Shown: positions 51,048 to 51,430 of the stretch, one piece after another
How the letters are laid out: each line of letters starts with the position of its first letter
How positions within the stretch are numbered: the first letter of the stretch is position 1
Origin: Gammaproteobacteria bacterium
GTDB lineage: Bacteria > Pseudomonadota > Gammaproteobacteria > Steroidobacterales > Woeseiaceae
NCBI GenBank assembly: GCA_009937615.1
Contig: JAACFB010000002.1
Location: 1 to 64,000 of the forward strand
Reading direction: 5' to 3'
Length of the DNA stretch: 64,000 bases
Translations under genes and position numbers: made by a program
The notes under the pieces: generated by a model
What the model was told of the DNA's origin: nothing
The model's database searches: none
What the model saw: only the letters and a program-made list of their open reading frames with translations

Positions 51048-51110
51048 CGTTCCGACCATCGCTCCTACGCTCGGAACAGGGTCATTCGAAACGGGAGCAT
51101 GGTCCAAAAG

Positions 51111-51134
51111 AAAAGCCGCTCAAGAGCGGCTTTT
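51111..51134. terminator. Bidirectional intrinsic terminator
   Basis: AAAAGCCGCT (51111-51120) pairs perfectly with AGCGGCTTTT (51125-51134) across CAAG. With a T-run on each strand it can stop transcription from the desulfurase-like gene on the plus strand and from the minigene on the minus strand. Confidence 0.93.
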
Positions 51135-51161
51135 CGTGAGATAGGTGTTTGAAAACGGTGG

Positions 51162-51242
51162 TCAGAGGAAGTTGGAAGGTTGCTCCATCATCCGTAGAAG
51201 ACCGAAGTGTTTTCGCAGCACCTTAGTTATCTCACTAGACAT
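51162..51242 (-). CDS. 26-residue minigene with near-perfect ribosome-binding site
   Basis: The minus strand carries an ATG at 51242 that reads 26 codons to a TGA at 51162-51164. The peptide begins MSSEITKVLRKHFG and ends LLRMMEQPSNFL. It has no Cys, no signal and no double glycine; it is basic in the middle and could form an amphipathic helix. AAAGGAGGTGATCC stands just upstream, matching the anti-Shine-Dalgarno tail of 16S rRNA over 13 or more bases, with six bases from AGGAGG to ATG. The strong terminator at 51111-51134 follows 28 bases after the stop. A complete little transcription unit is therefore present. I know no family for the peptide; it may be a secreted or leader peptide, or a small regulatory protein. 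Confidence 0.7.
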   Translation of the reverse strand: MSSEITKVLRKHFGLLRMMEQPSNFL

Positions 51243-51256
51243 GGATCACCTCCTTT
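51243..51256 (-). promoter_or_regulatory. Extended Shine-Dalgarno of the minigene
   Basis: Read on the minus strand this is AAAGGAGGTGATCC directly before the ATG at 51242. Read on the plus strand it is GGATCACCTCCTTT, the sequence of the 16S rRNA 3' end, but nothing else of 16S rRNA flanks it. No other gene in the window has such a long match. Confidence 0.8.
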
Positions 51257-51430
51257 CAAGTAGTTTGCCCGCGGCAGAGTATGTCGCGAATACTAACGAA
51301 TTCCAAGCGAAAAGTTGAAAAAGAACAGCGCTATAAATGTGATAACTCATGCGATATGATATTCGGCCATTTCCGCGTAGCCGGTTTGTAAGAGATCTCC
51401 CCATTGTGAGCGGCTGCGCCGGAATTCGCG

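Follow-up and report, generated by a model that had tools for sequence, protein, structure and literature searches.

A conserved, probably translated minigene resembling the Caulobacter CC2171 RNA in Woeseiaceae-type Gammaproteobacteria

The window analyzed here, comprising the first 64,000 nucleotides of contig JAACFB010000002.1 from a gammaproteobacterium of the Woeseiaceae, carries on its minus strand, at 51306-51106, a minigene composed of a sigma70-like promoter pattern, a leader, a site complementary to 16S ribosomal RNA (rRNA), a 26-codon open reading frame (ORF) and a terminator-like hairpin. We interpret it as the branch, within Gammaproteobacteria, of a class resembling CC2171, the Caulobacter small RNA (sRNA) of family RF01867 (Rfam), and as probably translated. 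That it represents a stand-alone structured mini-messenger RNA (mini-mRNA) of the CC2171 kind, whose most likely role is that of a regulatory RNA gated by translation, we put at about an even chance. In relatives the peptide is far less strictly conserved than either the open frame or the fold of the RNA, which suggests that what matters is the translation of this RNA and not what it produces. The parts of the minigene are the following.

51301-51306, minus strand: -35-like hexamer TTGGAA; the pattern TTGnnn-N16/17-nATACT is conserved at a fixed place
51278-51283, minus strand: -10-like hexamer CATACT, preceded by a 17-base spacer, with 35 bases from the hexamer to the ATG
51258-51270, minus strand: 5' leader GGGCAAACTACTT, with the conserved GGGCAAAC block
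51243-51257, minus strand: extended Shine-Dalgarno sequence GAAAGGAGGTGATCC, complementary to the 3' tail of 16S rRNA
51162-51242, minus strand: 26-codon ORF with stop, exactly 26 codons long in 52 of 53 distinct copies
51229-51235, minus strand: 5' arm of helix P1, GTGAGAT, from codon 3 to codon 5
51136-51142, minus strand: 3' arm of helix P1, ATCTCAC, abutting the terminator on its 5' side
51106-51135, minus strand: terminator-like hairpin plus TTTT, an 11-base-pair stem with compensatory changes

The reading frame and its peptide

The ORF starts with ATG at 51242 and stops with TGA at 51164-51162, and its peptide, MSSEITKVLRKHFGLLRMMEQPSNFL, has 26 residues and no cysteine, all of which the initial annotation had correctly described. 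Loss of the frame or frame-breaking indels in relatives, which the same annotation took to speak against a gene, were not seen. Among 53 distinct copies, collected with no length filter, 52 have 26 codons and one, owing to a 15-base in-frame insertion, has 31; none contains an in-frame stop, whereas stops occur in the +1 frame of 39, in the +2 frame of 29 and in the antisense frame of 28 of these copies. The set comprises genus genomes and those contigs from a pattern scan that share the gene neighbourhood, each copy being required to show an ATACT-like -10 element; locus L094 did not pass this filter and was counted only in a separate set with 26 codons in 45/45 copies, from which the 31-codon locus was excluded by choice of loci. 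The pattern of the genome-collection scan prescribes GGAGGTGAT, ATGTCT and some bases of codons 3-5, so the copies that it found are invariant there by construction. A recount on 46 copies that were not found with this pattern gave 26 codons in 45 and 31 in one. Judged by comparison of sequences, translation of the ORF is well supported. An ORF that is merely incidental to a noncoding sRNA of the Rfam type, its frame being meaningless, could appeal to the cataloguing of RF01867 as an sRNA and to the fact that RNA structure is the strongest signal, but it fits poorly with a frame free of stops in all 53 copies next to two others so often interrupted, and we consider it quite improbable.

The peptide behaves differently along its length. 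Compared with column shuffles of 33 distinct 26-codon copies, codons 6-16 stand out both in BLOSUM score (5/400) and in the synonymous fraction (16/400), whereas codons 17-26 give 158/400 and 325/400, with no amino-acid selection detected, and codons 6-26 together give 16/400 and 90/400; variability at third codon positions does not exceed that at the other two (0.402, 0.418, 0.419). Since this test used 26-codon copies only, its zero stop count is built in, and it was the 53-copy set in which stops were recounted. In a second family of 12 copies there is no amino-acid signal (239/1000 and 464/1000 shuffles), and zero stops arose in 43/1000 shuffles, such that the evidence for the frame is weaker there.

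These results bear on the view that we are dealing with a plain small-protein gene, the 26-residue peptide being its functional product and the RNA features only securing strong expression. This view would account for the frame without stops, for the behavior of codons 6-16, and for the MSSE, MSSG or MSRG starts and the loose pattern (VS, P, LG, EQPS, by eye) common to the peptides of the genus and the second family. It does not explain why selection is undetectable in codons 17-26 and in the second family, why codons 3-4 vary between S/R/G/C and E/G while their paired bases stay, or why ORF length and sequence differ in alphaproteobacterial (alpha) lineages; nor did the peptide match Pfam at E 0.001, a search in which a 26-residue query has little power. 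We regard it as rather doubtful. Amino-acid selection on the peptide is weakly suggested, and the peptide as the product of interest, which was the emphasis of the initial annotation, is likewise weakly supported, with codons 6-16 for it, and codons 17-26, the second family and codons 3-4 against it.

Helix P1

The RNA of the window has a better fold than any of 200 shuffled versions (z -3.8), and its helix P1 pairs GTGAGAT of codons 3-5 with ATCTCAC ahead of the terminator. Among the 46 copies found independently of the pattern, AGT serves as codon 3 in 32, CGT in 12, GGT in 1 and TGT in 1, and codon 4 is GAG in 30 and GGG in 16; GTGAG or GTGGG is thus present in all 46 and can pair with CTCAC, which lies within 60 bases past the stop in 42/46. 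Because the encoded residues change while the paired bases do not, codons 3-5 appear to be held as RNA.

A comparison between lineages is consistent with this. Over 20 hand-picked lineages the cognate arms of P1 gave -15.3 kcal/mol as opposed to -10.7 kcal/mol for swapped arms (0/20,000 permutations); the corresponding counts were 2/20,000 for alpha alone (12 lineages), 255/20,000 for gammaproteobacterial (gamma) copies alone (8 lineages) and 1/20,000 with one copy per distinct heptamer (22), as opposed to 14,596/20,000 in a control with codons 9-15. The terminator finder failed on 16/106 copies, the window's own among them, and these are absent from the permutation test. From a few copies we had also proposed that the 5' leader pairs with the segment preceding CTCAC, a second helix that would form a pseudoknot with P1, but permutation did not bear it out (p 0.66 in 45 genus-type copies, p 0.07 in 23 copies of the other clade).

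The ribosome site

Ahead of the ATG lies GAAAGGAGGTGATC (51257-51244), an exact 14-base ribosome site and the sole exact one in the window. The initial annotation had claimed both this match and the lack of a comparable site elsewhere in the window, and both claims hold: a search allowing up to 3 mismatches returned 3 other sites, each with 3 mismatches. As the total of 4 is in line with chance expectation (mean 4.95), it is the exactness alone that is unusual. The 12-base core AAGGAGGTGATC occurs once in the 3,364,165 bases of the genome (assembly 89% complete), although by our own arithmetic about 0.4 occurrences of a 12-mer are expected by chance on both strands, so that uniqueness alone proves little. 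The 16S gene of a same-genus genome, the only one of 41 genomes in which the 16S pattern was matched, ends in TGGATCACCTCCTTTC; accordingly GAAAGGAGGTGATCCA, including the A of the ATG, is complementary to it over 16 bases, although the mature 16S rRNA may stop short of some of them. Across relatives, AAGGAGGTGAT is found in 46/46 copies not selected by DNA pattern, most of which were found via a model trained on such sites, and the 16S-complementary site is among the most conserved blocks, present also in alpha copies.

Such a site invites the idea of a 30S decoy, in which the RNA would titrate small ribosomal subunits via its complementarity to 16S rRNA, P1 arresting the complex ahead of accommodation. 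The single genomic occurrence of the 12-base complement, the conservation of the site into alpha copies and the fact that P1 begins directly after the start codon would all suit a decoy. An open frame, however, would be dispensable in a pure decoy, but it has been conserved, and one RNA species would be required at very high abundance; we therefore think a decoy unlikely. An antisense fragment of a 16S gene was also considered and is not supported, as the order of promoter pattern, frame and hairpin fits the minus strand throughout.

An internal anti-Shine-Dalgarno scan of 32 chosen copies gave a mean z of -0.69, with values below -2 in seven, namely one gamma copy (L046) and six alpha copies (L139, L141, L144, L150, L154, L158). 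Four of the alpha copies (L139, L141, L144, L150) have anti-Shine-Dalgarno-like stretches within the ORF, e.g. TCACCTCC in L139; these could pair with the ribosome site, a lead upon which we base no claim.

Promoter pattern and terminator-like hairpin

The pattern of TTGnnn, 16 or 17 bases and nATACT occurs at a fixed place in 44/45 copies, ending 32-35 bases upstream of the ATG, and in 0.18% of base-shuffled sequences. Read off the position of the -10 hexamer, the transcript would start near 51270, leaving a leader of about 28 nucleotides up to the ATG; counted from the start of GGGCAAAC, the window's version would give an RNA of about 165 nucleotides. At the other end, the hairpin GAAAAGCCGCT-CTTG-AGCGGCTTTTC (51135-51110) is followed by TTTT; the initial annotation was right about the hairpin and the T-run but placed them 28 bases downstream, the actual distance past the stop codon being 26. 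In a 37-copy alignment, 7 of the 9 counted pairs of the stem show changes on both sides with pairing retained. A generic scan found neither a promoter nor a terminator at the minigene, which counts against these assignments, and they are further weakened by hexamers that match the consensus at 8/12 positions (own count) and by the short T-run; the support for both comes instead from conservation across copies. In an alignment of 43 copies the order is leader, Shine-Dalgarno sequence, ORF, CTCAC or a variant, and hairpin.

Upstream of the promoter, at 51341-51361 of the minus strand, there is a further stretch conserved in the genus (consensus about tAt.ATAaCgCA..AaaTg), which may be an operator or part of a divergent promoter of the neighbouring gene.

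Relation to RF01867

At the gathering level an Rfam scan of the whole window gave no match. With a relaxed threshold, cmscan aligned the minigene to RF01867 over its full length (1-159) with 30.8 bits and E 4.3e-5 for 261 bases. Infernal placed GUGAGAU and AUCUCAC of the window on the P1 columns of the family with 7/7 standard pairs, in six of which, by our own reading of the alignment, both bases depart from the Rfam consensus. The family matches 50/299 genomes of the phylum, 10 of them above the cut-off and, among 14 named controls, Caulobacter vibrioides alone, and a pattern for the 5' block is found in 43/398 genomes, our own included, once in each except for one genome with two matches. 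Alpha copies start with GTG or ATG, mostly followed by TCT, and have varied P1 letters; their ORFs have 14 codons in 9/9 copies of one family, 18 in 5/5 of another and 18 in 5/8 of a third, and 15-27 in the remainder.

The shared anatomy suggests common descent with RF01867, although convergence is possible inasmuch as the 16S complement supplies much of the score. The Rfam table line and model alignment of the family mention no ORF, and the literature searched, limited to open-licence papers, yielded no function for CC2171. Two earlier predicted noncoding RNAs of Caulobacter proved to be translated, according to a passage that does not name them (PMC4117421).

Two alpha-type copies, L201 and L203, reside on IMG/VR contigs classed as viral, which may be prophage borders or host DNA.

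Distribution and gene neighbourhood

Searched by tblastn, the 26 residues match in 11/60 genomes including our own, every one of the same genus. The genome-collection scan returned 41 stretches, one of them a chance match in Minicystis (L022), which was left out of the alignments together with L020, cut by a contig end; the other 40 have titles of Woeseiaceae, Gammaproteobacteria, Proteobacteria, proteobacterium or Chromatiales metagenome-assembled genomes. The relatives are Woeseiaceae-type Gammaproteobacteria. A covariance model built from 37 copies matched 52/61 genomes of the genus and 93/296 of the order, in six families, our own genome being included in both counts, and a subset of these matches was retrieved as sequence. 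Across the class, under stricter filters, it matched 4/321 genomes, namely our own, one other from the genus and two belonging to an additional family, these two with 26 codons each. The nine genus genomes with no match to the model measure 1.4-1.5 megabases in three cases and 2.0-3.8 megabases in the others, and several are incomplete; those of 1.4-1.5 megabases, the smallest among the 61 genus genomes scanned, are G004, G011 and G073. One genome of the genus, G064, has two full copies, L061 and L132, with 174 and 143 bits.

In the genus the gene downstream is a convergent aminotransferase class V gene, at times preceded by another opposite-strand gene, and the gene upstream, where sequence is present, is a DUF418 or EamA gene. 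In the second family (L013, L024, L043) the neighbours differ. We found no conserved downstream gene, and across the 23 loci compared no same-strand downstream family recurs at a fixed position. This bears on the possibility that the minigene encodes a leader peptide or acts as an attenuator for the gene that follows. A short ORF with a strong ribosome site and then a terminator would suit such a role, and the next gene does lie on the same strand in 2/3 second-family copies (L013 and L043). However, these two next genes differ (by eye greB-like and TetR-like), the next gene in the genus is convergent, and no run of codons for one amino acid was seen by eye, for which reasons we disfavour an attenuator and deem it extremely improbable.

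Among 13 genus loci chosen for their wide gap, 12 (L016, L019, L025, L031, L032, L034, L035, L039, L041, L045, L050, L055) have an opposite-strand gene between the minigene and the aminotransferase gene, at about +160 to +1100 after the ATG, which is not in the window; its protein has a signal-peptide-like start and, by eye, a PVETYTCNY-like motif.

Discussion

Start, stop and open frame are kept but the peptide hardly so; added to this are an extreme Shine-Dalgarno sequence and a helix that directly follows the start codon, and in combination these features make translation itself look like the point of the minigene. The initial annotation had recognized a minigene with a translated frame, and this part of its interpretation stands; it had noticed neither the helix nor the promoter pattern nor the link to CC2171. 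A translation-gated RNA could work as follows. P1 would close the ORF into a loop and block the mRNA track just past the start codon, and it would be opened only by a 30S subunit held on the extreme Shine-Dalgarno sequence; it is established that a strong Shine-Dalgarno sequence can offset structure at a start site, as reported by de Smit and van Duin. What opening would entail we can only infer: translation up to the stop, which is located before the 3' arm of P1, would expose or protect the 3' part of the RNA, the activity or lifetime of which would then follow ribosome availability, with the peptide itself being secondary.

Several results weigh against such a regulatory RNA. First, there is some amino-acid conservation in codons 6-16, and outside the genus ORF length drifts between 14 and 37 codons. 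Second, as regards P1, a control with a neighbouring segment was mildly positive (673/20,000), the cognate partner ranked best in just 4/20 lineages, and P1 has a pair predicted with a probability above 0.5 in 45/61 gamma and 12/20 alpha copies; in alpha copies codons 2-5 are predicted to be no less open (0.43) than the Shine-Dalgarno sequence (0.41). Moreover, 4/5 P1 pairs are invariant in the 37-copy gamma alignment, and since many of these copies were found by a pattern fixing part of the 5' arm, the support for P1 comes from the comparison between lineages. Third, the score of 30.8 bits is below the RF01867 gathering cut-off of 75.

It is conceivable, and we put it forward tentatively as the less likely outcome, that there exists a class of free-standing ribosome-gated RNAs across Alpha- and Gammaproteobacteria, usually one per carrier genome. 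Each would bear a stretch complementary to the 16S tail, a mini-ORF specific to its lineage and kept open with little constraint on its sequence, and, just past the start codon, a helix that only a 30S subunit could open, and it would sense or buffer free ribosomes. What Rfam lists as an sRNA family of Caulobacter would then become part of a wider, apparently translated class with an anatomy of 16S complement, P1 and ORF, and would offer a simple case for asking whether translating a short ORF controls a small RNA.

Comparison with known systems

RNAIII, which encodes delta-haemolysin, and SgrS, which encodes SgrT, are dual-function sRNAs with a short ORF. The minigene resembles them in being short and free-standing, in combining an ORF with a terminator, and in its conserved, probably translated frame, but differs from them in that its peptide is hardly conserved. 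CreT RNAs reportedly contain a run of rare codons in a mini-ORF, the translation of which is said to be the activity. They share with what we propose for the minigene a short RNA in which translating a mini-ORF is the activity, whereas no conserved rare-codon run is apparent, by eye only, in the codons of the 43 aligned copies or of the alpha copies. CreT RNAs are described as tRNA (transfer RNA)-sequestering RNA toxins (PMC8501985). Extended Shine-Dalgarno motifs and unannotated small ORFs are also met with in Staphylococcus aureus messages, where they are reported as a general feature of initiation (PMC13009471); unlike those messages, the minigene stands as a separate locus, and its fold is conserved.

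The closest resemblance is to RF01867 itself, with which the minigene shares the GAAAGGAGGUGAUCC block, the start codon followed by UCU, the helix of codons 3-5 with a pre-terminator segment, the terminator hairpin and the lack of a shared downstream gene. It differs in having ATG where two families above the cut-off have GTG, in most P1 letters, and in its 26 codons as compared with 21-27 in 9/10 above-cut-off matches, the tenth, L147, having been missed by the pattern.
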